The notes under the pieces were generated by a model. The model had not been told where the DNA came from. It was given only the letters and a program-made list of their open reading frames with translations, and did not search any database. Positions 4,213 through 15,106 of a DNA stretch of 20,665 bases are shown one piece after another (the stretch's first letter is position 1; the number at the start of each line of letters is the position of its first letter). Both the position numbers and the translations under genes were made by a program. This DNA is from a virus, in IMG/VR virus record IMGVR_UViG_3300043446_002753, positions 1 through 20,665 of that record; one strand, 5' to 3'.

Positions 4213-4250
4213 AAAAAAAGGGACAAGATGACATTGCGTCAACTTGTCCC
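4213..4250 (-). terminator. Rho-independent terminator of the leftward AAA/VWA operon
   Basis: A hairpin with arms GGGACAAG/CTTGTCCC and TGAC/GTCA, separated by one A-A mismatch and closed by a 5-base loop (4220-4250), is followed on the minus strand by seven T (4219-4213). It lies 28 bases after the stop of the 4278-5150 gene. The hairpin core is also a perfect copy of the dispersed 27-bp palindrome described elsewhere, so it may be a regulatory site as well as a terminator. Confidence 0.8.
4222..4248. repeat. 27-bp dispersed palindrome, copy 1 (in terminator hairpin)
   Basis: Reads GACAA-GA-TGAC-ATTGC-GTCA-AC-TTGTC and fits the consensus GACAW-N2-TGAC-N5-GTCA-N2-WTGTC at every fixed position. 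It lies in a gap between two leftward transcription units. Over 30 positions it agrees with the copy at 12407-12433 at 24, counting from three bases before the core. Confidence 0.85.
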
Positions 4251-4277
4251 AAAGCTGCCTTCTGGGAGAAGAAGGAT

Positions 4278-5150
4278 TTAACTAGCGGTAATTATCTCAC
4301 CGTTACACAGGAAGAACCAATTGTATTCATTAACCACAAACCGGACGCCGATAGATTCTGCTGCTTGTTTCTCTTTCAGCATCTTCAGCATACCGATCTT
4401 GGGTTGAAGCACCTCTGGCAAATCATACGAAGATAGTAGCTTTCTGGTTATAAACTCTGTGCCGGTGTGAGTTACCTCCGTCATGGAACCATCTCTTTCC
4501 TCGATCACAACCACACCATCACGCAACTCAAACCTACCCTGCACCGCTGAGACTATGCTATGAGTAGTGAAATGTTTCTCTGTATCAGGTTTTGTAAGCT
4601 TGCTGTGTACTGCGCTAGGAATAGGTGGACTGTCTCCCTTCACCACCTGCATCATGTACACAGCCATGTCCATAGCAAACTCTTCCGCGATACGCTCGGC
4701 AGAACGTCGTGCGCTGTAACTGATGTTGTTAAGTTCTGCTTCTGCCTGAGTCCATATATCCTTTCCTCGTTCTTGTGGTGTCTTGGTCACGGAAAACACT
4801 TTCACCGATAGCTTCAAAGCTTCAGAGTACTTAGCAGTTTCTTTGACTTCCCTCCTTCCGATGCTTTTCCTTATTCGGGGGGATTGTATCTCGTATACAT
4901 GGACTCGCCCACTAGAACCTCGATGGGTGCGGTATTCAACTTGTACCTTACCTACCTGCTCTACCCCATTGAACACAAGCACGTTATTGATATAGGCAAT
5001 ATCCTTACCTTCCATGTCCCGCAGCCAGTTATCTGTACTCTTGGCTTCGAACGAAAGCGACGGAACCTTCAGGTACAGCTCTGTCAAAAACTTCTCTAGC
5101 GGCGGATACACAGGGGAATCCGCGAACTTCGTGGTTTTATCTAGTTTCAT
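4278..5150 (-). CDS. Hypothetical phage protein, 290 aa
   Basis: This 290-residue protein begins MKLDKTTKFADSPVYPPLEK. The ATG at 5150 is chosen because GGGAGGAAGT precedes it; an ATG at 5168 would overlap the upstream gene and lacks a comparable site. Mixed alpha/beta character is suggested: a beta-rich segment around residues 50-90 ('KDIAYINNVLVFNGVEQVGKV'), a helical segment around 140-180 ('SARRSAERIAEEFAMDMAVY') and a beta-rich C-terminus. No catalytic motif was recognised. It is the last gene of the AAA+/VWA operon, ending 28 bases before the terminator hairpin, so it may be an accessory or substrate protein of that module; this is inference from position only. Confidence 0.82.
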   Translation of the reverse strand: MKLDKTTKFADSPVYPPLEKFLTELYLKVPSLSFEAKSTDNWLRDMEGKDIAYINNVLVFNGVEQVGKVQVEYRTHRGSSGRVHVYEIQSPRIRKSIGRREVKETAKYSEALKLSVKVFSVTKTPQERGKDIWTQAEAELNNISYSARRSAERIAEEFAMDMAVYMMQVVKGDSPPIPSAVHSKLTKPDTEKHFTTHSIVSAVQGRFELRDGVVVIEERDGSMTEVTHTGTEFITRKLLSSYDLPEVLQPKIGMLKMLKEKQAAESIGVRFVVNEYNWFFLCNGEIITAS

Positions 5151-5161
5151 ACTTCCTCCCA

Positions 5162-6052
5162 TTACCATTCGAATTTAGCTAGGATGCTATCGACTTTGCG
5201 TTTCACATCGTCACGAATTGCATCCGACTCTTTTAGTTCTTCGTAGTCAACACCATCGATTGCACGATTGAGTTCGACTCTTGCCAGTTCCAGCTTCGGG
5301 TCGTTGGCAATGTTCAGTCTACTCAACAGGCCCACCAACTCTTTCGCGTTGGATACCAGCGTAGAGTGAAAGCCCTTACGCTTGCCATCCTGACCATCTG
5401 TCAGTCTGTCGCTCATGTGGGTCAGACAATCATGCAGCCTATCCCAGATGTCACGCATCGCATGGTTAAGACGTTGGTTGAAGTGGTCGGTGTACTGTTG
5501 CGCCAGTTCAGCCTTCGCTTGCTCGTTGATGTCGATACGAAAATCCCCTGCTGTCGGCACAGGACTCACCGCATAGTTAAAGCGGAACTTGTTAGCAATC
5601 ATCTCAACCGCAGGGTACTCCTCGCGGTCAAACAAATCACCAAGTTGAAAAGCCGCTGCTGATATCAACGTAGGGTACTGCTGAAGAAAGTTAGCCACCA
5701 GTTCCTCGAAGTTCTCCTTGTGCTGATCAAGCTGCGCCTTGTACCCATTGAAGAACTGTTGGGCTGTCACGATACGCTGTCCATTGTCAGACCACGGCAG
5801 CGAGTTCAAGTTGTTCCACAGTCTTGCCTGTGCTGCGTACTTAGTCACAGCCTCAAGCGCAGGGCTACCCGCAAGCAAATGCTTGTGATAGTTGCCAGCT
5901 TTTACTTTAGTATTCTTGGAAGCATCAACCTCCAGCGATACCTTCTTGTCCAGTTTCCTAGCAGTCCAGCAAGAAATGCTAAGTTCAACCAGTAACGATG
6001 ACGATGCTATGCCGAACGATTCGAACGTCGGCGTTTCAGTTATTGCGTTCAT
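5162..6052 (-). CDS. Phage protein, possibly DUF3150-like, partner of AAA+/VWA pair
   Basis: This 296-aa, mostly helical protein begins MNAITETPTFESFGIASSSL. Its early segment 'LLVELSISCWTARKLDKKVS' followed by a Lys/Asp-rich stretch and long helices resembles DUF3150-type proteins, which are often encoded beside a MoxR-like ATPase and a VWA protein. I make this assignment from memory of that layout and rate it as tentative. It has no enzyme motif. The ATG at 6052 follows GGGGTGAGAT and starts 3 bases after the VWA stop. Together with the two neighbouring genes it probably forms a functional complex. An imperfect copy of the 27-bp palindrome lies inside it (5384-5410). Confidence 0.85.
   Translation of the reverse strand: MNAITETPTFESFGIASSSLLVELSISCWTARKLDKKVSLEVDASKNTKVKAGNYHKHLLAGSPALEAVTKYAAQARLWNNLNSLPWSDNGQRIVTAQQFFNGYKAQLDQHKENFEELVANFLQQYPTLISAAAFQLGDLFDREEYPAVEMIANKFRFNYAVSPVPTAGDFRIDINEQAKAELAQQYTDHFNQRLNHAMRDIWDRLHDCLTHMSDRLTDGQDGKRKGFHSTLVSNAKELVGLLSRLNIANDPKLELARVELNRAIDGVDYEELKESDAIRDDVKRKVDSILAKFEW
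5384..5410. repeat. 27-bp dispersed palindrome, degenerate copy inside a gene
   Basis: Reads GCCAT-CC-TGAC-CATCT-GTCA-GT-CTGTC. The inner TGAC/GTCA pair is perfect and the right outer arm TGTC is perfect; the left arm has GCCA instead of GACA. The right half equals that of the intergenic copy at 8658-8684. Being in coding sequence, it could be a chance match. Confidence 0.45.
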
Positions 6053-6055
6053 ATC

Positions 6056-7321
6056 TCACCCCACATAAACAGTTTGTCCATACTTCGGCACAAAGTCTTT
6101 CTTGCCCACCACACACCACAACACCGGTGCGCTGATGCGGTTCCACTCATGCCAACCATCACCGTAGAAATCACCGTCGGTCAGCATGATCACGCATTGC
6201 GGCGCGATACGCTCGGCTTCGAGATAGATCGGCACACACTCAGGCTGCGTACCGCCGCCACCTCTAGGCTTCGTGCTGTCAATAACATTAGCTACCTCAG
6301 CGCCGCGATAAGTTTCATGGCTTGCTACGTGGCTATCCCAATACAGTAGTTCAACTGTCTCAGGTGCTACGTCATCACAGATAGACTTCATCTCACCCAT
6401 GAACTGAGCAAGCAACTCACCTTGCACAGAACCGGATGTATCGATACCCACCACCATAGTCTCTGCCTTCTCTGTTACTGAACTCGGCATGATGATGTCC
6501 ACACCCAAATACCTACGGTTGGGTCTACGCCACGTTGATTGATCGCCACCCTTTGTGTGGGTCTTGATGAACTCACGCAACGCTTCACGCCAATCGACTT
6601 TGGGATACAGCAACTCGTTGATGCCACGAGATACCTTGCCTTTCATTTTTCCTGCTAGAATGGCACCCTCACGCAGCGCGTTATCTATCTCAGTCGCAAG
6701 CTCATCGGCTTGCTCTTTAGTCATCTTCTGTGCGCCCTCCCAGTCATGCTCATCAAAGTTATTACCGTTGCCATCCCCCTGCTGGCCTTGTTTGTCGCCC
6801 TGACCATCAGCAGGACTTCCTGACGAACCGTCATTATGTCCATCGTTCTTACGCTTCTCGGCCTCCTTCTTAAGTACGTCATAGACCTGCTTAGTGTCCA
6901 TATTACGGTACTGCTCGTCTAACAAGCCCATCAACTTACCGTCCTTGTCCCTCGGCATCTCAACCGCTTCGCCGCTCGGGTCGGAGTCTATGATCTGCAA
7001 GTTAATGACGTAGTCCATCGCTGCGTTCGCAAGCAATGGGTTCTCTTTGGCAATGCCCTGCCACACCGTCAAGTGACGATACGCTTTGTGCATTGCCTCA
7101 TGCACGACAACAAACGCAAGCTGCTTGTCTGTTAGGGATTCCACAAACGCTCGCCCATACGTCACATCCCTACCGTTCGTCGATGCAGTCGGATGCGTCT
7201 CGCTGATAGACACCTTGCCTACCATGAACAGACCGCTGAACAAACAGAAGTTCTTGTGCTGCATTAGCTTGGCATGCGCCCTCTCGATGCGCTGCTCCGC
7301 AGATAGTTTTAGTGTAGCCAT
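6056..7321 (-). CDS. HExxH metallopeptidase-like / VWA-like domain protein (DUF2201-type)
   Basis: This 421-aa protein has two parts. The N-terminal part contains a zinc-metallopeptidase-like motif 'VVHEAMHKAYRH' (HExxH at 74-78) followed by 'AAMDYVIN' with Asp103 as a possible third ligand. A low-complexity Gly/Asp/Asn/Gln linker occupies about 159-195. The C-terminal part is a von Willebrand A-like domain with MIDAS motif 'DTSGS' (294-298), Thr358 in 'GGGGTQP' and 'TDGD' (381-384). This architecture matches VWA-like/DUF2201 proteins that work with MoxR-type AAA+ ATPases. The start at 7321 has GGGGAGG about 7 bases upstream and overlaps the previous gene by 13 bases. The likely role is a metal-dependent adaptor with its AAA+ partner; substrate unknown. 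Confidence 0.92.
   Translation of the reverse strand: MATLKLSAEQRIERAHAKLMQHKNFCLFSGLFMVGKVSISETHPTASTNGRDVTYGRAFVESLTDKQLAFVVVHEAMHKAYRHLTVWQGIAKENPLLANAAMDYVINLQIIDSDPSGEAVEMPRDKDGKLMGLLDEQYRNMDTKQVYDVLKKEAEKRKNDGHNDGSSGSPADGQGDKQGQQGDGNGNNFDEHDWEGAQKMTKEQADELATEIDNALREGAILAGKMKGKVSRGINELLYPKVDWREALREFIKTHTKGGDQSTWRRPNRRYLGVDIIMPSSVTEKAETMVVGIDTSGSVQGELLAQFMGEMKSICDDVAPETVELLYWDSHVASHETYRGAEVANVIDSTKPRGGGGTQPECVPIYLEAERIAPQCVIMLTDGDFYGDGWHEWNRISAPVLWCVVGKKDFVPKYGQTVYVG
6814..6840. repeat. 27-bp dispersed palindrome, near-perfect copy inside the VWA gene
   Basis: Reads GACTT-CC-TGAC-GAACC-GTCA-TT-ATGTC. The inner pair and the right arm are perfect; the left arm is GACT instead of GACA. It falls in the part that encodes the flexible linker, where protein constraint is low. 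Confidence 0.55.
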
Positions 7322-7548
7322 GCTGCTTCCTCCCCTTCATTTGTGGCATTGAGATATCTATTCAAGCTTTTGGCTATCTCGCTGATGTAAGTTTCTTTTG
7401 GCAATACTTTTTCGTCGTATAACTCAGCGAGCAAAAAGATAAGCGCGGGTATGATGCAAGCGATCTGCTTGCCCTCCATCACATCTTCAAAGTTGCTCAC
7501 CAACTCATGCACCATCTTTTGTGCGCTCTCAATATCTTTCTTATCCAT
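7309..7548 (-). CDS. Small helical protein between AAA+ and VWA genes, 79 aa
   Basis: This 79-residue acidic protein begins MDKKDIESAQKMVHELVSNF. It appears all-helical, with a hydrophobic central segment ('QIACIIPALIFLLAELYDEK', about residues 28-47) that may be a buried helix or a short membrane helix. The ATG at 7548 is preceded by AAGGAGACAAAC, and the gene overlaps the VWA start by 13 bases. No family was recognised. Its conserved position suggests it is a third component or regulator of the AAA+/VWA pair. Confidence 0.75.
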   Translation of the reverse strand: MDKKDIESAQKMVHELVSNFEDVMEGKQIACIIPALIFLLAELYDEKVLPKETYISEIAKSLNRYLNATNEGEEAAWLH

Positions 7549-7558
7549 GTTTGTCTCC

Positions 7559-8620
7559 TTAGAACAAGTACTGGTTAGTCCGCATCCAGTTGATGAACGC
7601 GGGGCTGGTCATAAGAATCTGCTGCTTCTGCTCGTTCTGATTGCACGTTACACAGAACACCGACTGAAGCTCCTTCGGTGTACGCTTCAAGTACTCGAAC
7701 CATGCGTTGATACTACCTCGGTCAACCTTCTGCACCGCACCGTATGCCATGATGCAAAGTGCCGCTGCGTTGGTCGGTACCTTCGCCTTCATCGGATCAG
7801 CAATAATCTCTTCCCACGATGGTAGGGAATCGGCAACCTCGACAAACGCCAACAAGTCCCGCGCTGAAGCTTCACCAATCGTGCCGCACAACGCAGCAAG
7901 TAAAGCATCCCTCGTTATCAAACTACGCTTCAACAAGATGTTGCTAGCACGATGCCCTGAACGCGGCGAGAAGTAAGACTTCTGCGGGAACTTCGGGTTG
8001 AAGATGTGGTGATTCTCTTTCTGCGCAGGGTCTTTGTACGACGCCAACACGTGTGGATACTGACGTACGAAAGTCAGCAACTCGGGGGCAAACCCCGCCG
8101 ATGTACCGAACAGCACATACTCCTCCCATGTCGGCTTACGCACAGGCACGACAGTCATGCGGTTAAGCGAGTGCGCCTTGAGCATATCGCCCACGCCGTC
8201 GGACAGATTGTTACCAGCCGTCACCACAATGCTGTCTTTGTGTAGCCGCATACCACCGATGCGCCGCTCGTTTAGTAGTGGGTGCAGCATATTCTGTACC
8301 GCTTGGCTCGATGGCTTGGTGAACTCGTCGATGAAGGCGACCAACGGTTCATGCTTGTGAAAGCCCCAAACCTCGTTGGGATACAGGCTAGTTGTCTTTG
8401 TCTCATGGTTCGGCATGGGGATACCAATGTCACCAAGCTCGGTGTTAGGTGTGTCGATGTACACACCACGATAGCCAGTACGCTTGACCAGCCGCTCGAA
8501 CATTGCCGTTTTGCCAATACCTGGTTCGCCTACCAGATGAATAGCGTTCTGATTGCCAACCGTCAGGATGAGTTCCTCGGCTTCTTGCAGGGATACTTCT
8601 GTGTTCATGCGAATTTCCAT
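7559..8620 (-). CDS. MoxR-like AAA+ ATPase
   Basis: This 353-aa ATPase shows Walker A 'GEPGIGKT' (31-38), Walker B 'LVAFIDE' (93-99, Asp98/Glu99), a sensor-1 'TAGNN' (134-138) and a candidate arginine finger 'LNRM' (Arg154). The extent and spacing fit MoxR/dynein-type AAA+ proteins (AAA_5-like), which remodel protein targets and commonly pair with VWA-domain adaptors, as the downstream gene order here also suggests. The start ATG at 8620 has AGGAGAAACAA upstream; an in-frame ATG four codons later lacks its own site. A 27-bp palindrome copy lies 38-64 bases upstream of the start, where it could control expression of the module. Confidence 0.93.
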   Translation of the reverse strand: MEIRMNTEVSLQEAEELILTVGNQNAIHLVGEPGIGKTAMFERLVKRTGYRGVYIDTPNTELGDIGIPMPNHETKTTSLYPNEVWGFHKHEPLVAFIDEFTKPSSQAVQNMLHPLLNERRIGGMRLHKDSIVVTAGNNLSDGVGDMLKAHSLNRMTVVPVRKPTWEEYVLFGTSAGFAPELLTFVRQYPHVLASYKDPAQKENHHIFNPKFPQKSYFSPRSGHRASNILLKRSLITRDALLAALCGTIGEASARDLLAFVEVADSLPSWEEIIADPMKAKVPTNAAALCIMAYGAVQKVDRGSINAWFEYLKRTPKELQSVFCVTCNQNEQKQQILMTSPAFINWMRTNQYLF

Positions 8621-8657
8621 TTGTTTCTCCTAGTTAGTTTGTACAACACAACATCAC

Positions 8658-8684
8658 GACAACCTGACACCATGTCAGTCTGTC
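8658..8684. repeat. 27-bp dispersed palindrome, copy upstream of the AAA+ ATPase gene
   Basis: Reads GACAA-CC-TGAC-ACCAT-GTCA-GT-CTGTC, matching all GACA, TGAC, GTCA and TGTC blocks. On the minus strand its TGAC includes the TGA stop codon of the upstream gene, so it spans the gene junction immediately before the AAA+ leader. Confidence 0.85.
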
Positions 8685-9616
8685 CAAGGCAACGATGAGT
8701 CAGACCCAAACCGCAGGTACTTCTCATTAGAGTCGCGCACTACTACTCCCCTCTCTGCTGCTACTTCCTCAAACAAACTGTCGCTGTACTCGTACTTGCA
8801 CAGCTCGTAGAAATGCTCCCGCATCCCTTGTGGCGTGACAAAGTCCTGCCGCGTATACCCCATCCACTTACTATCTTTTGCGTTGTACGCAATGGTTTGG
8901 GATAGCTCAAAAAATGTTTCTAGTTTTGCTTCGCTAGTACCACGCGCCACTACGCCGTTCAAGTTGACGAAGAAGTTCACCCGCTGCCGCATTACGTCAG
9001 CGTTGTTCCACCGCATCTCTGACATGACGACGGGAAGATAGGCAACCCGCTTACCCGATAGGTCTAAGTTGTTGCCAACTGACTGCGCGTAGAAAGTCAT
9101 GTACTCAACGAACTCGGCGTAGTGTTTACGCAGTCGCGCCATGACAGGCTTCATCAAGCTGTGTTTGTACTCAACAATGCCTCCCTCTACGCTGTTATCA
9201 GGACGAATAATGATAGGGGTTTGCTCTACCCCACTTGGGTTAAACCTATGCTTGAACCCACTCCCATCCACTAGGTACATCTTGCCGTTCACGCGGGCAA
9301 TAGGTCGCCCGTTGTTCGCACTCCCAAAGCGGTAGCGTAGTACCAAATCGATGAATTCGGTGGTTGACACACTCTCGTACCCACCATGACGCAGTTCCAC
9401 GCTGTTGTCAGGCTTGTAACGAATTACGTCTGTGTTATATAAGCTACAAACGATATCGTCGCCATCCTGACGAATCAAGCTACGGTCGTACCGACGGTTG
9501 CCACCAAGGGGTTTTAGTCCTTTGGATGCGCCTTTGCTGTAAGGCTTCACCGCTACCCAATGCACATAGGCATCGCGGTAGGTCTGCAAGTTTGGAAACA
9601 GATCAGAGTTGTTCAT
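8675..9616 (-). CDS. Conserved phage protein of unknown function, 313 aa
   Basis: This 313-residue protein begins MNNSDLFPNLQTYRDAYVHW. The ATG at 9616 is preferred over an in-frame GTG one codon earlier because GGGAG lies 6 bases upstream of the ATG. A recognisable stretch 'NTDVIRYKPDNSVELRHGGY' followed by 'STTEFID' (about residues 61-90) looks like a beta-hairpin unit seen in several unassigned phage proteins; a related pattern recurs at about residue 136 ('IIIRPDNSVEGGIVEYKH'). No catalytic residues stand out. It precedes the AAA+ gene by about 54 bases and probably belongs to the same operon. The AT-rich gap just upstream (9617-9671) could hold a weak promoter, but no convincing -35 was seen. 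Confidence 0.85.
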   Translation of the reverse strand: MNNSDLFPNLQTYRDAYVHWVAVKPYSKGASKGLKPLGGNRRYDRSLIRQDGDDIVCSLYNTDVIRYKPDNSVELRHGGYESVSTTEFIDLVLRYRFGSANNGRPIARVNGKMYLVDGSGFKHRFNPSGVEQTPIIIRPDNSVEGGIVEYKHSLMKPVMARLRKHYAEFVEYMTFYAQSVGNNLDLSGKRVAYLPVVMSEMRWNNADVMRQRVNFFVNLNGVVARGTSEAKLETFFELSQTIAYNAKDSKWMGYTRQDFVTPQGMREHFYELCKYEYSDSLFEEVAAERGVVVRDSNEKYLRFGSDSSLPWTD

Positions 9617-9671
9617 CACCTTCTCCCTTTGTACAAATATATAAGTGCTACTACAAACAAAAAGATATAAA

Positions 9672-9914
9672 TCATCGCCACTCAGCCTTGCGTTTAACTT
9701 CCTCGGCGATGGTGTTGATGAGAATCTGCACCGCTGTGGTCATGGTCGCCTTGTGTTCCTTTGGCAGCATTTCAACTGCGCGAAACACATCCGAGTAGGC
9801 TTCCTCTGTTGATTCTCTAGTAGCAAATAGGCTACATTGAAGAGAATTTGCATAGCCAATCACATCGACCTGCGCATCGTCGTGCGCGTCGTAAAGTGCT
9901 TCGATTGATCTCAT
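9672..9914 (-). CDS. Small hypothetical protein, 80 aa
   Basis: This 80-residue protein begins MRSIEALYDAHDDAQVDVIG and ends '...ILINTIAEEVKRKAEWR'; it is predicted helical. The start at 9914 is chosen because it has GGAGG upstream and forms an ATGA overlap with the preceding 36-aa gene. A longer frame upstream is rejected because it reads through that gene in another frame. The C-terminal phrase 'TAVQILINTIAEE' resembles one in the 11087-11269 product ('QQAIVNTIAAEYHN'), hinting that these small genes may share ancestry. Function unknown. Confidence 0.72.
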   Translation of the reverse strand: MRSIEALYDAHDDAQVDVIGYANSLQCSLFATRESTEEAYSDVFRAVEMLPKEHKATMTTAVQILINTIAEEVKRKAEWR

Positions 9915-10021
9915 TTCGGTAGTCCTCCAAAGAAAAAAATCACAAGAATGACACCCAATACGGTGCCGATGATTGCACCGGCGATTGCCGCTGCGATTGC
10001 TAACATCTCGTTGTCGTCCAT
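9911..10021 (-). CDS. 36-aa single-span membrane protein
   Basis: This short frame encodes a polar N-terminus (MDDNEM) followed by one continuous hydrophobic helix of about 25 residues rich in Ala, Ile, Gly and Val with a small-residue pattern, ending '...FFFGGLPK'. It is supported by an AAGGAGAAGTA ribosome-binding site and by overlaps at both ends: TAATG with the upstream gene (10023-10019) and ATGA with the downstream gene (9914-9911). Such micro-membrane proteins in phage early regions may modify the host envelope or exclude other phages; the true role is unknown. It could also be holin-like, but the early-arm location argues against that. Confidence 0.7.
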   Translation of the reverse strand: MDDNEMLAIAAAIAGAIIGTVLGVILVIFFFGGLPK

Positions 10022-10209
10022 TACTTCTTCTCCTTGTCGTCGTACAGGACATACTGACGCTTGGTCAGGATGTCGTTCAGTTTCCTCGTCGTTGCCTTCA
10101 GGTCATACATCGGCTTGTTAAACAAAAGGCAATGCAACTCCATGTTTCTGGCGGTGTCGGCATCTTCCCTTGCCTTCCGTTCTTTCTTCAGTTCGCGGTC
10201 TTTACCCAT
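10021..10209 (-). CDS. Small charged hypothetical protein, 62 aa
   Basis: This 62-residue protein begins MGKDRELKKERKAREDADTA and is very rich in Lys, Arg, Asp and Glu in its first 20 residues, then predicted helical. The ATG at 10209 has GGAGG about 6 bases upstream; the longer frame to 10338 overlaps the preceding gene and is rejected. Its stop overlaps the next ATG (TAATG). A perfect copy of the 27-bp palindrome (10048-10074) lies within its coding sequence, in the part encoding 'NDILTKRQYV'. Function unknown; the charge pattern would fit nucleic-acid or protein binding. Confidence 0.7.
   Translation of the reverse strand: MGKDRELKKERKAREDADTARNMELHCLLFNKPMYDLKATTRKLNDILTKRQYVLYDDKEKK
10048..10074. 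repeat. 27-bp dispersed palindrome, perfect copy inside a small gene
   Basis: Reads GACAT-AC-TGAC-GCTTG-GTCA-GG-ATGTC and fits every fixed position of the consensus although it is within coding sequence. This shows that the motif is not limited to intergenic hairpins. Confidence 0.8.
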
Positions 10210-10489
10210 TGCATGCCTCCGGTAAATAGCACAGCCACAAGTGGCCTGATATACGTTTGTAACGAAATGACTTCTTTTGTACTGATCGAACATGGTTGTT
10301 GAACTGCTTAACCAATGGGGCTTCAATCCCACCAGCAACGGTGATACGCAAAGTGGCAGGGTCGCACCTGATGATCACAGCCCCATGTTCCTCAAGGATT
10401 CTGAACATCACATCCCAGTCTGGTACTAGCTTCATAGGGACAGCCACTTCTTGAGCGCGTTCCGCCAAAGCAAAAACGTCTGCTTTCAT
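10202..10489 (-). CDS. Hypothetical protein, 95 aa
   Basis: This 95-residue protein begins MKADVFALAERAQEVAVPMK and contains 'WDVMFRILEEHGAVIIRCDP', 'RITVAGG' and a C-terminal 'RYKRISGHLWLCYLPEACNG'. The pattern suggests an alpha/beta fold, but no family was recognised. The start at 10489 has AAGGGGG about 4 bases upstream. It overlaps the following gene by 8 bases in the leftward operon of very small early genes. Confidence 0.72.
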   Translation of the reverse strand: MKADVFALAERAQEVAVPMKLVPDWDVMFRILEEHGAVIIRCDPATLRITVAGGIEAPLVKQFNNHVRSVQKKSFRYKRISGHLWLCYLPEACNG

Positions 10490-10498
10490 TTAACCCCC

Positions 10499-10687
10499 TT
10501 AGTCGTAGACGGTATCCAGTATTTGCTCAAACCGCTTGGATGCCTCATTTCTGGATAGGTTTTCGGTACGAAACGCTATTGCCGCTGTTCGTGCTAACAC
10601 CACCATGCCTTCGTGCGGGGATAGCCCCGAATGCATCAAGTCAATGGTGATTTTTAGTGCCATTTCTTCCATAAGTTGTGCGCTCAT
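10499..10687 (-). CDS. Small hypothetical protein, 62 aa
   Basis: This 62-residue protein begins MSAQLMEEMALKITIDLMHS and ends '...KRFEQILDTVYD'; it looks fully helical. The ATG at 10687 has AAGGAG about 6 bases upstream, and it lies 1 base after the upstream stop, so the longer frame to 10879 is rejected. The pattern of two amphipathic helices could mediate protein-protein contact. No function is assigned. Confidence 0.7.
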   Translation of the reverse strand: MSAQLMEEMALKITIDLMHSGLSPHEGMVVLARTAAIAFRTENLSRNEASKRFEQILDTVYD

Positions 10688-10688
10688 T

Positions 10689-10922
10689 TCATGCTCCTTG
10701 TCGTTTAGGGTTGGTAAAACACAGGTCTTGCGGGTTGTGGATGTACTGGTACGCACCCTTGCTGTATGGGATTTGTACCATGCTTGCCTTGCGTTTCTTC
10801 TCTTGCACAGCTGCCGCTTCGCCGCAAGGCTTGCATAGGTTGTAGCCAAGTTTGTAACGTGCGTGGTCGATGAACCCACCGCACACTACGCATAGATACC
10901 GCTTATCTTCTTCATGGTGCAT
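10689..10922 (-). CDS. Zinc-ribbon-like small protein, 77 aa
   Basis: This 77-residue protein begins MHHEEDKRYLCVVCGGFIDH and carries two CxxC pairs (Cys11/14 and Cys30/33) separated by 15 residues, a treble-clef or zinc-ribbon-like arrangement. The C-terminal half is basic ('EKKRKASMVQ'). The ATG at 10922 is supported by AAGGGGATAACA. It overlaps the next upstream gene, a similar CxxC...CxxC protein, by 11 bases. The pair may be tandem paralogues. Likely zinc-binding; DNA, RNA or protein target unknown. Confidence 0.75.
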   Translation of the reverse strand: MHHEEDKRYLCVVCGGFIDHARYKLGYNLCKPCGEAAAVQEKKRKASMVQIPYSKGAYQYIHNPQDLCFTNPKRQGA

Positions 10923-11094
10923 TGTTATCCCCTTCACCGTCGGTTTTGTTTGGCTTGTCGTACTGCACTTTGGAGCAGGCTTGGCAGACTGTGTGGCCGT
11001 AAGCAAGTCTGGTCTTTCCTATGTTGTTAGTCAGGCAGATACGGCACGTGTTTGGGTTACGCGGGTTGTGCGTTTGTTTGCGTTGTTTAGACAT
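10912..11094 (-). CDS. Zinc-ribbon-like small protein, 60 aa
   Basis: This 60-residue basic protein begins MSKQRKQTHNPRNPNTCRIC and has CxxC pairs at Cys17/20 and Cys37/40. Between the pairs, 'TRLAYGHTVC' parallels 'ARYKLGYNLC' in the next gene, suggesting duplication. The ATG at 11094 lies inside a copy of the 27-bp palindrome, with the ribosome-binding sequence AGGTG in the loop of a CTGAC/GTCAG stem. An in-frame GTG three codons earlier is inside that stem and is not used here. Probably a zinc-binding regulator or adaptor; specificity unknown. Confidence 0.75.
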   Translation of the reverse strand: MSKQRKQTHNPRNPNTCRICLTNNIGKTRLAYGHTVCQACSKVQYDKPNKTDGEGDNNAP

Positions 11095-11269
11095 TCTGAC
11101 CACCTGTCAGGTTGTCGTTGCGGTTGTGGTACTCGGCAGCGATGGTGTTGACGATGGCTTGCTGCGCGTCGTGATAGCGCAGTTCTTCCCATGCCCTCAT
11201 GTACTCGGCACGTGGTGTTGCAGGATCGTTAACTATGCGTTGTAGGTAAGCGATGTAGTTGGTGGACAT
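11087..11269 (-). CDS. Small hypothetical early protein, 60 aa
   Basis: This 60-residue protein begins MSTNYIAYLQRIVNDPATPR; the first half contains 'AEYMRAWEELRYHDAQQA', predicted helical. Its start region lies in the first of two identical 32-bp repeats (11262-11293), with GGAGG in the loop of a short TGAC/GTCA stem just before the ATG. Its stop overlaps the zinc-ribbon gene start by 8 bases. No domain was recognised. Confidence 0.72.
   Translation of the reverse strand: MSTNYIAYLQRIVNDPATPRAEYMRAWEELRYHDAQQAIVNTIAAEYHNRNDNLTGGQNV
11090..11116. repeat. 27-bp dispersed palindrome over the start of the 60-aa zinc-ribbon gene
   Basis: Reads GACAT-TC-TGAC-CACCT-GTCA-GG-TTGTC on the plus strand. 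On the mRNA (minus strand) the WTGTC end contains the ATG start of the 10912-11094 gene, and the 5-base centre is the ribosome-binding site. Confidence 0.85.
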
Positions 11270-11293
11270 AATGACCCTCCGTCAGATTGTCGT
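11262..11293. repeat. 32-bp direct repeat, copy A (contains a 27-bp palindrome, 11265-11291)
   Basis: Identical over 32 bases to 11498-11529. It contains GACAT-AA-TGAC-CCTCC-GTCA-GA-TTGTC. On the minus strand it carries the ribosome-binding site (GGAGG) and start codon of the 11087-11269 gene. Confidence 0.92.
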
Positions 11294-11316
11294 GGTTAAG
11301 TTGTTCAGGTTGTTGG

Positions 11317-11505
11317 TTAGTAGCGAAGGCCGGTGTTTACGTCGATCAGGCCAGTCAGGTCTGCGCCCTCGATGAACTTGGTTGCTGCATGGGCAGCATG
11401 GGCGAACTCGATGTTGGTAAGCAAGCCGTTGCAGTATTGGGTTACTAGGTTGTTGATGATGTCGTTTAGTTGTTGCATGGTTTCTTGGTTGATAGTAGTG
11501 GACAT
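11317..11505 (-). CDS. First gene of the leftward early operon, 62 aa, unknown
   Basis: This 62-residue protein begins MSTTINQETMQQLNDIINNL and is predicted helical; it contains 'EFAHAAHAATKFIEGADLTG'. It is the promoter-proximal gene, about 75 bases downstream of the predicted start of the consensus promoter at 11586-11614, so it should be expressed very early. The ATG at 11505 lies inside the second 32-bp repeat with GGAGG in a hairpin loop. Early promoter-proximal phage genes often encode host-takeover factors or regulators, but nothing in the sequence proves that here. Confidence 0.75.
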   Translation of the reverse strand: MSTTINQETMQQLNDIINNLVTQYCNGLLTNIEFAHAAHAATKFIEGADLTGLIDVNTGLRY

Positions 11506-11529
11506 AATGACCCTCCGTCAGATTGTCGT
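11498..11529. repeat. 32-bp direct repeat, copy B (contains a 27-bp palindrome, 11501-11527)
   Basis: Perfect duplicate of 11262-11293, placed over the ribosome-binding site and start codon of the 11317-11505 gene. The 27-bp palindrome inside reads as in copy A. Confidence 0.92.
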
Positions 11530-11585
11530 TGGTAAGATAAAAGGAAAACCATAAAGAACAGGCCGAACCTCGACCTGCAACCCAT

Positions 11586-11614
11586 ATTATAACACATAAA
11601 CTATACAATGTCAA
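11586..11614 (-). promoter_or_regulatory. Consensus sigma70 promoter of the leftward early operon
   Basis: On the minus strand TTGACA (11614-11609) and TATAAT (11591-11586) are separated by exactly 17 bases; both hexamers are perfect, and TGT precedes the -10, giving an extended -10 element. Transcription should start near 11579, giving a leader of about 75 bases before the first ATG (11505). It is expected to be recognised by host RNA polymerase straight after infection. Confidence 0.93.
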
Positions 11615-11772
11615 GTGAATGTCTGTGGTTGCAAGGGGCGTGTCTTGGTCTTTGGCACGATGATTGCTTGATGAGATTTTTAAAAAGTTTTTTGTTTTGC
11701 CTGGCAACGGTGGCAACTTTGTCGTTTTGCTTGTTGCGTATTGGGGGTTATTGAGATGTTATCGTAATTGCT

Positions 11773-12317
11773 ATTGTTCTCTGTTTTTCTTGTAATGTTC
11801 GCTGTTTTTGATTTTGGAGAACAATTGCGATAATGGCATCGGATTAGTGGGGGTGGCTGTGTCGTTGGTTTGATTGTTCTGGGTGGGGAAAAAACAGAGA
11901 ACAATTGCGGGAATGGCAACGATTTAGTGATTTGAGAAAGTTCAATAAAATCAATGGGTTACGATGTTCTGAATGTTGTTAATATTGTTATTGTTCGAAA
12001 AAAAAAAAATAGAGAACATTAGGCCTAGGAAAAATGCGGATTGTACGGGATGTTCATTTGTTCTATTAAAAAAAGAGAGCGGAGCTAAAACGGATGCGAT
12101 ATTTTGATAACATTTTTATGCACTTGCCGAATGCCTCGTTAAAAGTGAAAAATCCGAAAATCGTCAAAAACGTCGGAACATTAGAACATTGCAGAACAAT
12201 TAACGAAATTTTGATAACTTTTTTAGACAAAACGTAATGTAATCAATGACTTACGAGCGTTTTATAATGTTCGAAATTTTCCTTGTAATGTTCGCTGTTT
12301 TTTTATTTTCGAACATT
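11773..12317. repeat. Iteron-like array of about 16 GAACA(A/T) motifs
   Basis: Copies of NGAACA(A/T)T or its complement lie at 11773, 11794, 11818, 11873, 11898, 11963, 11990, 12013, 12049, 12057, 12175, 12183, 12193, 12266, 12287 and 12310 (first base of each 8-mer). Thirteen match GAACAWT strictly; those at 11963, 12049 and 12057 differ at the last base. Both orientations occur and spacing is irregular, with three copies tightly packed at 12175-12200. Longer repeats surround some copies: AGAACAATTGCG with AATGGCA at 11818 and 11898, and CTTGTAATGTTCGCTG at 11790 and 12283. The array fits either replication-initiator or repressor binding. Confidence 0.75.
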
Positions 12318-12361
12318 GCACAAAAAATAGGCAGAAAAATATTTTAAAAAAGGCTTGACAA

Positions 12362-12409
12362 GTCGCAAAAAAATCTTTAAGCTGCTAGCAGCTTAAAGCT
12401 TTTAGCGAC
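12362..12409. repeat. 24-bp perfect palindrome nested in a 48-bp inverted repeat
   Basis: The core 12375-12398 is self-complementary over all 24 bases (arms CTTTAAGCTGCT/AGCAGCTTAAAG). Flanking GTCGC (12362-12366) and GCGAC (12405-12409) extend the symmetry with A-rich and T-rich shoulders. Seven A lie on the left, so on the minus strand the hairpin is followed by ATTTTTTT, like a leftward terminator. A TTGACA hexamer at 12355 lies just upstream, but no good -10 follows it. It could be an operator, origin structure or terminator. Confidence 0.7.
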
Positions 12410-12433
12410 AAAATGACGCTGCGTCAGGTTGTC
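12407..12433. repeat. 27-bp dispersed palindrome in the control region
   Basis: Reads GACAA-AA-TGAC-GCTGC-GTCA-GG-TTGTC, with all fixed positions matching. It abuts and slightly overlaps the 48-bp inverted repeat, and lies upstream of the rightward promoter. Confidence 0.87.
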
Positions 12434-12468
12434 CAAAACCTTCCCTCATGCCTCTCCCCGCGCGACAC

Positions 12469-12509
12469 GGCTACCACGTTGGAATGACCGTTCCTTCCTT
12501 TTTGATAAC
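12469..12509 (+). repeat. 41-bp element, copy 1 (upstream of first ~200-aa gene)
   Basis: Begins GGCTACCACGTTGGAATGAC and ends TTTTGATAAC. It matches 13297-13339 completely except for two single-base gaps. The segment GGAATGACCGTTCC has imperfect dyad symmetry, and the terminal TTGATA is a possible -35. It is probably a promoter/operator duplicated together with the downstream gene. Confidence 0.88.
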
Positions 12510-12529
12510 AAGACACTTTGTCGTATAAA
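12502..12529 (+). promoter_or_regulatory. Probable rightward promoter of the first ~200-aa gene
   Basis: TTGATA (12502-12507) and TATAAA (12524-12529) are separated by 16 bases, each matching consensus at 5 of 6 positions. The spacer contains a small inverted repeat GACA-CTT-TGTC that could be an operator. An alternative start signal TGG-CATAAT (12588-12596) further downstream resembles an extended -10. Confidence 0.55.
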
Positions 12530-12535
12530 TACAAC

Positions 12536-12583
12536 GCTACCTGGTAGCATGGTATACAAAGTAATTTCCCTATCCTGGTAGCA
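12536..12583 (+). promoter_or_regulatory. Operator-like GGTAGC repeats in the leader
   Basis: GCTACC-T-GGTAGC (12536-12548) is a perfect 13-base inverted repeat. CCTGGTAGCA occurs at 12540-12549 and again at 12574-12583. GCTACC also opens the 41-bp elements at 12469 and 13297, so the same protein might bind all of them. Confidence 0.45.
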
Positions 12584-12603
12584 AATCTGGCATAATCTTG
12601 AAT

Positions 12604-12630
12604 GACGGACTGACATGGGGTCAGCGAGTC
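12604..12630. repeat. 27-bp dispersed palindrome, degenerate copy in the first rightward leader
   Basis: Reads GACGG-AC-TGAC-ATGGG-GTCA-GC-GAGTC. The inner pair is perfect; the outer arms keep only GAC/GTC. It lies 20 bases before the start codon at 12651, close to the ribosome-binding site. Confidence 0.55.
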
Positions 12631-12650: not shown

Positions 12651-13241
12651 ATGAGTGAAGTAACTATTGCCCAGCCGCAGGCTGGTGCGTTCGCAGCCGG
12701 TGAAATGTTCGCGCGTAGTGAGATCGACGCGGACGAAGCCCTTGAGATGTTTGCGCGTACTGTGGGCGCGGAGCCATCCTACGAGTTGTGGCAGGCCGAG
12801 CGCGTTAATTTTGTGAATGGCTATGTGAACGTTAAGCCGCACGCGAAAGGCGATTCTGCGGACAAGGCTTTCCAGCGCATGAAGGACCGCGCGGTAAGTA
12901 AATTCGCTATCGTCGTACCAAAGTCACCGAGCGCAGCCGCGACCAAGAAGGCCGCCGAACGCAAGGCCAAAGAAGCGAAGCTACTAGAGAAGCACGGTAG
13001 CGCAACGCCGACCATGCTACGCGCCCAGCTTGAGGCCGCTTATCAGGCGCTAGCAAAGCAACCTGATAGCAAGGTAGCCAACGCGCTAGTCAACGAGTAC
13101 AAGAAGGTTTTAAAGCTCAAGACGCGCGATGAGGACAAAGCCGAGCGCGAGGACATCAAGGCCATCAAAGATGAGATACGCGAGGCCATGAAGGACGCTA
13201 CGCTGGCGCAACTCGAGGCCGCTTTAGCCGCGCTACGATAA
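12651..13241 (+). CDS. ~200-aa phage protein A, paralogue of the next gene; function unknown
   Basis: This 196-aa protein begins MSEVTIAQPQAGAFAAGEMF. The start at 12651 is chosen because GGAGG lies 5 bases upstream; an ATG 12 codons earlier has none. Segment 47-58 ('LWQAERVNFVNGYV') and 69-80 ('SADKAFQRMKDR') match the next gene product. A Lys/Ala/Glu-rich helix (about 97-116) and further helices suggest an elongated coiled-coil-like C-terminal half. Its codons are markedly richer in G and C than those of its paralogue: the 60 bases at 12721-12780 contain 37 G+C, against 22 at 13561-13620 in the paralogue. It has its own promoter region and terminator, so it is likely expressed strongly and separately. 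A DNA-binding or regulatory role is possible but unproven. Confidence 0.85.
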   Translation: MSEVTIAQPQAGAFAAGEMFARSEIDADEALEMFARTVGAEPSYELWQAERVNFVNGYVNVKPHAKGDSADKAFQRMKDRAVSKFAIVVPKSPSAAATKKAAERKAKEAKLLEKHGSATPTMLRAQLEAAYQALAKQPDSKVANALVNEYKKVLKLKTRDEDKAEREDIKAIKDEIREAMKDATLAQLEAALAALR

Positions 13242-13359: not shown

Positions 13360-13494
13360 GACAGACTGACTATTAATCATTATGTCGTGATTAAAATATA
13401 CAATTGGATATTTGATAGGATGATAGGTAAAATTATTTCCAATGATTCAGGCATGGGGCTTGATTCAGAGCACTAACCTAATGGAGTTTCCATC

Positions 13495-14130
13495 ATGGAA
13501 AAGACTACAGTAGCAGCACCGATACCGGTGCTAACGGATGACCAGCGGTTAATCGCTCGCGATGCTGGTTTTCAATTTGCCAAAAACCAATTGGCTAACA
13601 TAGAAACGGCATCGAATTATGCGCATATGCTCGATACTGATCCGACACTTGACAAGTGGGAAGCAGCGCGCATTGACTGGGTGTCTGGTTATGTTGAGGC
13701 AAACCCGAACAATACAGGCAATGCAGCTGATAAGGCTTGGCAGCGGTTCGCTGATTTGCTGGATAATCTATTCGGACTAACCAAACCAAAATCGACCAAT
13801 CCGGCAGCTGAGAAGAAAAGAGCAGAGAGAGAAAAGAAAGCAGCTGATTTGCTTGCAAAGTATCAAGACCAATCCGTAGCCGAGCTGAGAGCAACAATCG
13901 AGCATGCTTACCAAGTACTCAGCCAAAACCCAAACCACAAGGAATCTCTGAAGCAGGTCAAGGAGCTGGACAAAGTATTAAAGGCAAAGCAATCGGCAGC
14001 CAACAAGCAATACGGTGAAGAGCTGAAAGAGATGCGCAACGACGTTATCGATGCGGTTCGCAAGTGTACTGAAATCGAAGCATTAGCAGCCGCTCTGGAT
14101 ATCCTAAACTCAGCTGAGCAGATGATGTAA
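13495..14130 (+). CDS. ~200-aa phage protein B, paralogue of the preceding gene; function unknown
   Basis: This 211-aa protein begins MEKTTVAAPIPVLTDDQRLI. The ATG at 13495 follows GGAG by about 8 bases. Segment 54-67 ('KWEAARIDWVSGYV') and 78-88 ('ADKAWQRFADL') align with protein A, as do the Lys/Ala/Glu-rich helix (about 105-122) and 'ATIEHAYQVLSQNPNHKES' (133-151). The N-terminus is longer than in A. Composition is close to the rest of the window, unlike A. It ends 21 bases before a strong terminator. The pair is a clear tandem duplication that includes regulatory DNA. The family is not recognised. Confidence 0.87.
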   Translation: MEKTTVAAPIPVLTDDQRLIARDAGFQFAKNQLANIETASNYAHMLDTDPTLDKWEAARIDWVSGYVEANPNNTGNAADKAWQRFADLLDNLFGLTKPKSTNPAAEKKRAEREKKAADLLAKYQDQSVAELRATIEHAYQVLSQNPNHKESLKQVKELDKVLKAKQSAANKQYGEELKEMRNDVIDAVRKCTEIEALAAALDILNSAEQMM

Positions 14131-14485: not shown

Positions 14486-15106
14486 ATGACAATTCAGATA
14501 CAACCTACCAGTGATGTGCCAGTCCCCAAAAATTTAGGCGACGAAGTCGGCGCGTCTTTGCAGGAGAATGCTCGCATCGCTGCCAATACAGCAGCTTTGA
14601 TGGCAGAGTTAGATATGCCCTTCGAAATGACGGAGGAAGATGAGAAGCTGGCCCACGACTTGTTTAAGCAAGTTGATAAACAAAAACATAAAAACGGCAA
14701 AGACGAATACAACCCTCCCGCGCTATATCAGGGTAACGTAGCCTTAAAGTTAGCAGCGTTGCTAACAGAATACGACCACCGAGTTGTCCTCAATGCAACT
14801 CAAGCAAGAACCTACATTACTAATAGACTCCTCGAAATATCCTCTTGTGGTGACGCAAAGCATGAGCTTCGTGCTATTGAGCTACTAGGAAAGCTCTCAG
14901 ATGTCGGTGCATTTACCGAAAAGAGCGAAGTCACCATTACCCACCGCACCTCCGACGATCTCAAAAATGCGATTGCGGACAAGATCAACCGACTCTTGGC
15001 TGCACAAAATGCAAATATTATCGACATAAGCCCCGATACGACCCTAGAAGATGAGCTTGGCTTGCTTGAGGCTAGGGTAAATGACTTCAAGGGAGATAAG
15101 GAATGA
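14486..15106 (+). CDS. Probable terminase small subunit
   Basis: This 206-aa protein begins MTIQIQPTSDVPVPKNLGDE. It is called from its position directly before the large terminase (ATGA overlap at 15103-15106) and from the helical segment 'ARTYITNRLLEISSCGDAKH' followed by 'ELLGKLSDVGAFTEKSEVTI' (about 107-150), a pattern seen in small terminase-like proteins of phages with P22-type heads. It would recognise the packaging site and stimulate the large subunit. A weak ribosome-binding sequence (AAGGCAGAG) lies before the ATG. The N-terminal helix-turn-helix typical of many small terminases is not obvious here. Confidence 0.72.
   Translation: MTIQIQPTSDVPVPKNLGDEVGASLQENARIAANTAALMAELDMPFEMTEEDEKLAHDLFKQVDKQKHKNGKDEYNPPALYQGNVALKLAALLTEYDHRVVLNATQARTYITNRLLEISSCGDAKHELRAIELLGKLSDVGAFTEKSEVTITHRTSDDLKNAIADKINRLLAAQNANIIDISPDTTLEDELGLLEARVNDFKGDKE

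Follow-up and report, generated by a model that had tools for sequence, protein, structure and literature searches.

The window analyzed here, the whole stretch of 20,665 nucleotides, is part of the genome of a tailed phage that has not been cultivated. Its + strand encodes terminase and portal, while DNA polymerase A, an exonuclease and a MoxR/VWA module are encoded on the − strand. Dispersed along it are 11 copies of a 27-bp palindrome, scored over the 16 core bases GACA-N3-TGAC-N5-GTCA-N3-TGTC. Seven of these are perfect over the core (4222, 8658, 10048, 11090, 11265, 11501 and 12407), three carry one core mismatch (5384, 6814 and 13360), and one carries two (12604).

The early operon starts from a promoter on the − strand (11586-11614; TTGACA-17-TATAAT, with a TG before the −10 box), directly after which comes a terminator-like hairpin (11558-11578, −) that is possibly an attenuator. 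Some 60 bp past the −10 box, the palindrome at 11501-11527 holds the GGAGG and ATG (11505, −) of the first early gene; an identical copy at 11265-11291 holds the GGAGG ribosome-binding site and ATG (11269, −) of another early gene. Deeper in the operon, the palindrome at 11090-11116 overlaps a stop/start junction (ATG at 11094, −), and the one at 10048-10074 falls within the 3′-terminal part of another short gene (10021-10209, −). F19 (10689-10922, −) encodes a small four-cysteine zinc-finger protein. The copy at 8658-8684 overlaps the stop codon of F5 (8675-9619, −), which codes for a protein of no assigned function, and sits just upstream of F2 (7559-8620, −), the gene of a MoxR-type AAA ATPase (AAA_5; phrog_1297). 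The next two copies lie within genes, namely at 6814-6840 in F0 (6056-7321, −), encoding the DUF2201 VWA/metallopeptidase-like partner, and at 5384-5410 in F14 (5162-6052, −), which has a weak DUF3150 match. Beyond F1 (4278-5168, −), again of no assigned function, the palindrome at 4222-4248 (GACAAGATGACATTGCGTCAACTTGTC) marks the F1/F7 junction and has a counterpart there in almost all relatives. The MoxR/VWA module, F2 with F0, is bracketed by sites; F2, which is paired with the DUF2201 VWA protein, has homologues at ~25% identity among the ATPases of N4-like phages, PEV2 being one example.

On the other side of the early promoter, the palindrome at 12407-12433 lies in the divergent intergenic region, where it adjoins a terminator-like hairpin (12375-12398, −). 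The remaining two copies precede paralogous genes on the + strand. One, at 12604-12630, ends ~20 bp upstream of the start codon of F6a (12651-13241, +), whose 196-aa product belongs to no known family, has an all-helical model and is the putative reader of the inner block of the site. The other, at 13360-13386 (GACAGACTGACTATTAATCATTATGTC), lies upstream of F6b (13495-14130, +; 211 aa), and the same position is kept in relatives.

The 27-bp repeat is genuine and not the result of chance. An earlier note, made by reading the sequence, had listed ten sites, all of which are present where it placed them; TGAC-N5-GTCA occurs exactly 10 times in the window, as compared to 0.38 expected from base counts. 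Its statement that no copy lies in 12.7-20.7 kb is contradicted by the site at 13360. The note had also proposed a comparison with shuffled sequences, and here the count in the window is clearly higher: the full 27-bp consensus with up to 3 mismatches gave 11 matches, including one offset 3-mismatch overlap at 8650, versus a mean of 0.04 (largest value, 1) in dinucleotide shuffles. Base shuffles scored over the 16 core bases, allowing up to 2 mismatches, gave 0 sites.

Site placement in a clade of aquatic phages

The repeat belongs to a clade of uncultivated aquatic bacteriophages, not to a single genome. Scanning viral contigs for GACA-N3-TGAC-N5-GTCA-N3-TGTC returned at least 230 sites in at least 119 stretches. 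Among the matches listed, all multi-site records have the same gene families, and records sharing no clade gene family have one site each; lacking clade genes, these single-site viral records look like chance or unrelated palindromes. The motif was absent in the 50 kb scanned of each of HTVC027P, DSL-LC04 and Pag-Yong1, which had been found via TerL. The TerL-based scan of bacterial genomes returned MAG contigs only, without sites, and no host was found by it. A literature search found nothing specific to this repeat.

In the 27 related records plus the window, there are usually 6 to 11 sites per genome, about 1 kb apart and confined to a single (early) arm. They span the divergent region that separates structural from early genes, and the early operon as far as F7, while the structural genes and the region past PolA had no sites in these same records; the replication genes beyond F7 are without sites. 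The second comparison that the earlier note had proposed, with related phages, showed corresponding site positions in dozens of them. Syntenic copies recur in front of each F6 gene, at the early promoter, at the first genes, at F5/F2, inside F0, around F14 and at F1/F7. Within F0, synonymous-codon conservation peaks at the site at 6814 (z 3.9), which suggests selection on the DNA as such.

Between F5 and F7, 131 of 171 sites (77%) fall at gene junctions, which make up 23% of that span. Reading in the early direction, sigma70-like promoters precede sites by 25 to 100 bp in 60 cases, versus ~5 expected. Wherever a promoter is recognizable it comes before the site, and most of the remaining sites are found within the operon. 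With conserved junction positions and locations downstream of recognizable promoters, the proposal of dispersed operators is supported, and the placement is consistent with that expected of a transcription roadblock.

Two of the sites, 11265 and 11501, contain a ribosome-binding site together with a start codon, and most sites lie at gene junctions, as might be expected if the palindromes worked in RNA, forming 5′ leader hairpins that control translation. We nevertheless consider this very improbable, given that one conserved site lies deep within F0 and that the arms do not vary as an RNA stem would. Among 352 distinct early-operon sites, A-C mismatches between the arms outnumber G-U mismatches (46 versus 17), which is the opposite of what an RNA stem keeps and thus leaves no RNA-stem signature; in addition, the spacers are largely unpaired. 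As G-U pairs are not favored in the arms, the sites are better understood as operators read in duplex DNA, as had been suggested from the window itself, and we infer physical binding, dimerization and repression at these sites.

The sites might alternatively be centromere-like or DNA-organizing, acting in partition or nucleoid structure rather than in transcription. Scattered centromere sites are known from phage N15, and ~10 palindromes spread over 8 to 10 kb would fit such a role. However, no ParB_N, ParA-type AAA_31 or integrase was found in the 18 to 21 records searched, and the arrangement of ParABS partition systems, with ParA and ParB genes beside parS-like sites, is not seen here. The sites follow promoters and gene junctions instead, which makes a partition role equally improbable and favors transcriptional operators.

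Near-constant outer and switching inner blocks

A survey of site classes at 75 loci, gathered as relatives of the MoxR gene F2, revealed a modular site. Little variation is seen in the outer block, GACA...TGTC, which begins with AACA or CACA at a few loci, whereas the inner block differs by lineage, reading TGAC, TTAC, CTAG, CCGC/T, TGTC/TGGC, TAAG, TAGG, CGAA or TTTC. The architecture is the same across these loci despite the differing inner block, although a few of them have no such sites, and the inner block tends to change at all sites of one genome together. The earlier proposal of two contact blocks per half-site gains support from this pattern, in which a constant outer and a swapped inner block evolve separately. 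A 28-bp form of the site is seen in four loci (L308, L322, L358 and L362), reading GGACA-N20-TGTCC with CTTAG-N6-CTAAG within. In L329, a single genome carries a mixture of inner blocks (GTAC, ATAC, TGAC, AGAC and TTAC), as though a switch were under way.

An example of switching is given by L291 and L292, which are near-isogenic. At their homologous sites, flanks and outer arms are the same and CCGC is replaced by CTAG at every one. Core proteins of the two are 98 to 99% identical and F20, the neighbor of F6, is 99% identical, in contrast with 31% for F6. The same CCGC/CTAG swap recurs independently on another backbone, that of L296 and L298, with 36% identity in F6 and 99% in F20. Comparing members of the same class across the two pairs, F6 is 63% identical between L292 and L296 and 73% between L291 and L298. 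In these comparisons, F6 goes with the site class rather than the backbone. In a third pair, L326/L363 (TTAC/TAAG), identity is 43% for F6 and 82% for F20; over 30 kb, F1, F5 and a few small genes differ too, as they do between same-class phages.

Such paired comparisons are stronger evidence than class statistics. In the latter, which are exploratory since motif classes were defined during the search on the same loci as analyzed, distances were corrected for core proteins; among the families tested, divergence tied to class at a given core distance was seen for F6 and F20 alone (partial r, 0.51 and 0.53, as compared to −0.19 to 0.13 for the rest). The mean z of the class effect was 2.4 to 3.9 for F6 versus ~0 for most other families, and the class-dependent segments of F6 are residues 14 to 34 and 54 to 79. 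A stricter test covered every discordant triplet; F6 agrees with site class in 47 to 59% of them, which is above other families but not decisive. In addition, the mixed site set of L329 comes without a strongly changed F6, which counts against F6 as the reader.

Several other families were considered as readers. F20 (14486-15106) is class-correlated overall but not diverged in the near pairs; F1 and F5 are fast-evolving and do not track class; and a small ribbon-helix-helix-like protein (cluster 14) shows little class effect. The first binder candidate, the HTH protein F11, is conserved in the clade, yet its recognition helix is invariant across inner-block classes, being the same in TGAC, TTAC, CTAG and CCG phages. 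F11 at L155:5046-5282 is a 78-aa HTH protein that adjoins a primase-like gene.

The candidates put forward in the earlier note were the proteins at 12651 and 13495 and the zinc-ribbon proteins; the former, which make up the F6 family, co-switch best with the inner block, while the latter fared less well. It might still be that the palindromes are operators whose inner block is read by another co-switching product, be it F19, some other short gene of the early operon or one that is not on the contigs compared, with F6 hitch-hiking with nearby sites. In line with this, L291 and L292 are also unlike in their short early genes, among them F19, in a comparison of contigs rather than whole genomes. 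F19 relatives (L296:5400-5648) weakly match the DksA/TraR zinc finger and phrog_54, and F6 is without a known DNA-binding fold. Moreover, L299 combines F19 and a majority of sites of one type with an F6 of another: this F6 is of the CTAG type and accompanied by one CTAG site, and the remaining sites are CCGC. L299 may, however, be a chimera or very recent recombinant, because it is 100% identical to L298 save for ~1.3 kb at the contig end, the part that contains F6. Against F19 itself stands its small class effect at fixed core distance (mean z, 0.1 to 0.5), as does the fact that L290 and L292 are both CTAG yet differ in their zinc-finger segments; against a small early gene, the first gene after F6 is unrelated in L291 versus L298, both of the CCGC class. 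We therefore regard a reader other than F6 as unlikely, albeit less so than action in RNA or in partition.

F6 as a putative regulator, and related systems

Compared to Pfam and PHROG, F6 matches no family, and a tblastn search of 50,697 phage records gave no match. Models of two members are confident and all-helical (mean pLDDT, 91.5 and 88.0), with no PDB match and no Foldseek hit below E 0.001. Its charge is near-neutral, which counts against DNA binding. If F6 binds DNA, these models suggest that it would use an undescribed fold, the main weakness of the claim.

Taken together, we favor, with a probability of roughly 0.6, that the 27-bp palindromes are duplex-DNA operators of a phage regulator, most likely F6, by which the early operon is silenced through a roadblock. 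An F6 dimer would contact the near-invariant outer GACA...TGTC plus the lineage-specific inner block (TGAC...GTCA in the window), the best candidates for reading the latter being segments of the F6 N-terminal helical domain. F6 would occupy sites past the early promoter, ahead of the F6 genes and at junctions over the first 8 to 10 kb of the early operon. We infer that F6 thus placed would block elongating RNA polymerase, shutting down the early genes, MoxR/VWA module included, and that, when bound upstream of its own genes, it would shut down its own synthesis as well.

The pattern suggests a gene-control system, hitherto undescribed, whose specificity can be exchanged. More tentatively, with odds that we put slightly short of even, F6 might be the first member of a novel class of phage DNA-binding regulators, built on a helical fold not described before and reading fixed plus exchangeable operator blocks, in apparently lytic phages with immunity-like specificity groups whose regulator and every operator are switched together. 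Good descriptions of stoperator-like control come mainly from temperate mycobacteriophages. If our reading is true, the same logic would exist in an uncultivated phage clade in which no integrase was found, through a candidate regulator unrelated to theirs and a two-part palindrome whose inner block switches at all sites along with a single gene. Pairs of the L291/L292 type would then be natural swaps, illustrating how a regulator and ~10 scattered operators shift specificity together, and raise the question why selection diversifies operators in phages that apparently do not form lysogens.

In Cluster A mycobacteriophages such as L5, Bxb1 and TipsytheTRex, many repressor sites, the stoperators, lie along the genome, mostly intergenic and off promoters (PMC6550527, PMC9283540); distances of repressor and site correlate between related phages (PMC6550527), and the asymmetric site is recognized by a monomer of two domains, one HTH and one Stoperator (PMC9283540). 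The sites described here are likewise many, mostly away from promoters and in intergenic gaps, and they share a two-part site that diverges together with its candidate regulator. In contrast, Cluster A sites are 13 to 14 bp, asymmetric, oriented with transcription and present at 20 to 30 per genome, as opposed to a 27-bp palindrome restricted to the early arm. Their HTH plus Stoperator repressor is unrelated to F6, for which no family or structural match was found, and Cluster A phages are temperate with integrase or parABS, neither of which was found in the 18 to 21, perhaps incomplete, records here. The parallel with stoperators drawn in the earlier note thus holds as an analogy: a working likeness rather than membership, with the asymmetric site, the repressor and integrase or parABS setting Cluster A apart.

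The nearest palindromic case is that of the Cluster O mycobacteriophages (Corndog), which have no integrase and carry 17-bp dyad repeats, many intergenic and some in genes, of unknown function (PMC4351075). The Corndog repeat is a single block, TGTTCGG-N3-CCGAACA, with 34 copies genome-wide, and the clade site differs from it in sequence, length and distribution; unlike for the clade sites, no switching or partner protein has been described.

Finally, the Planktothrix phage Pag-Yong1 (L122, L191) has homologues of F0, F2 and F14, as in the clade, with no F6 homologue detected. It has a dispersed palindrome of its own, a 17-bp single block near CGGTTCAGNCTGAACCG, with 38 copies at up to 3 mismatches on both arms.
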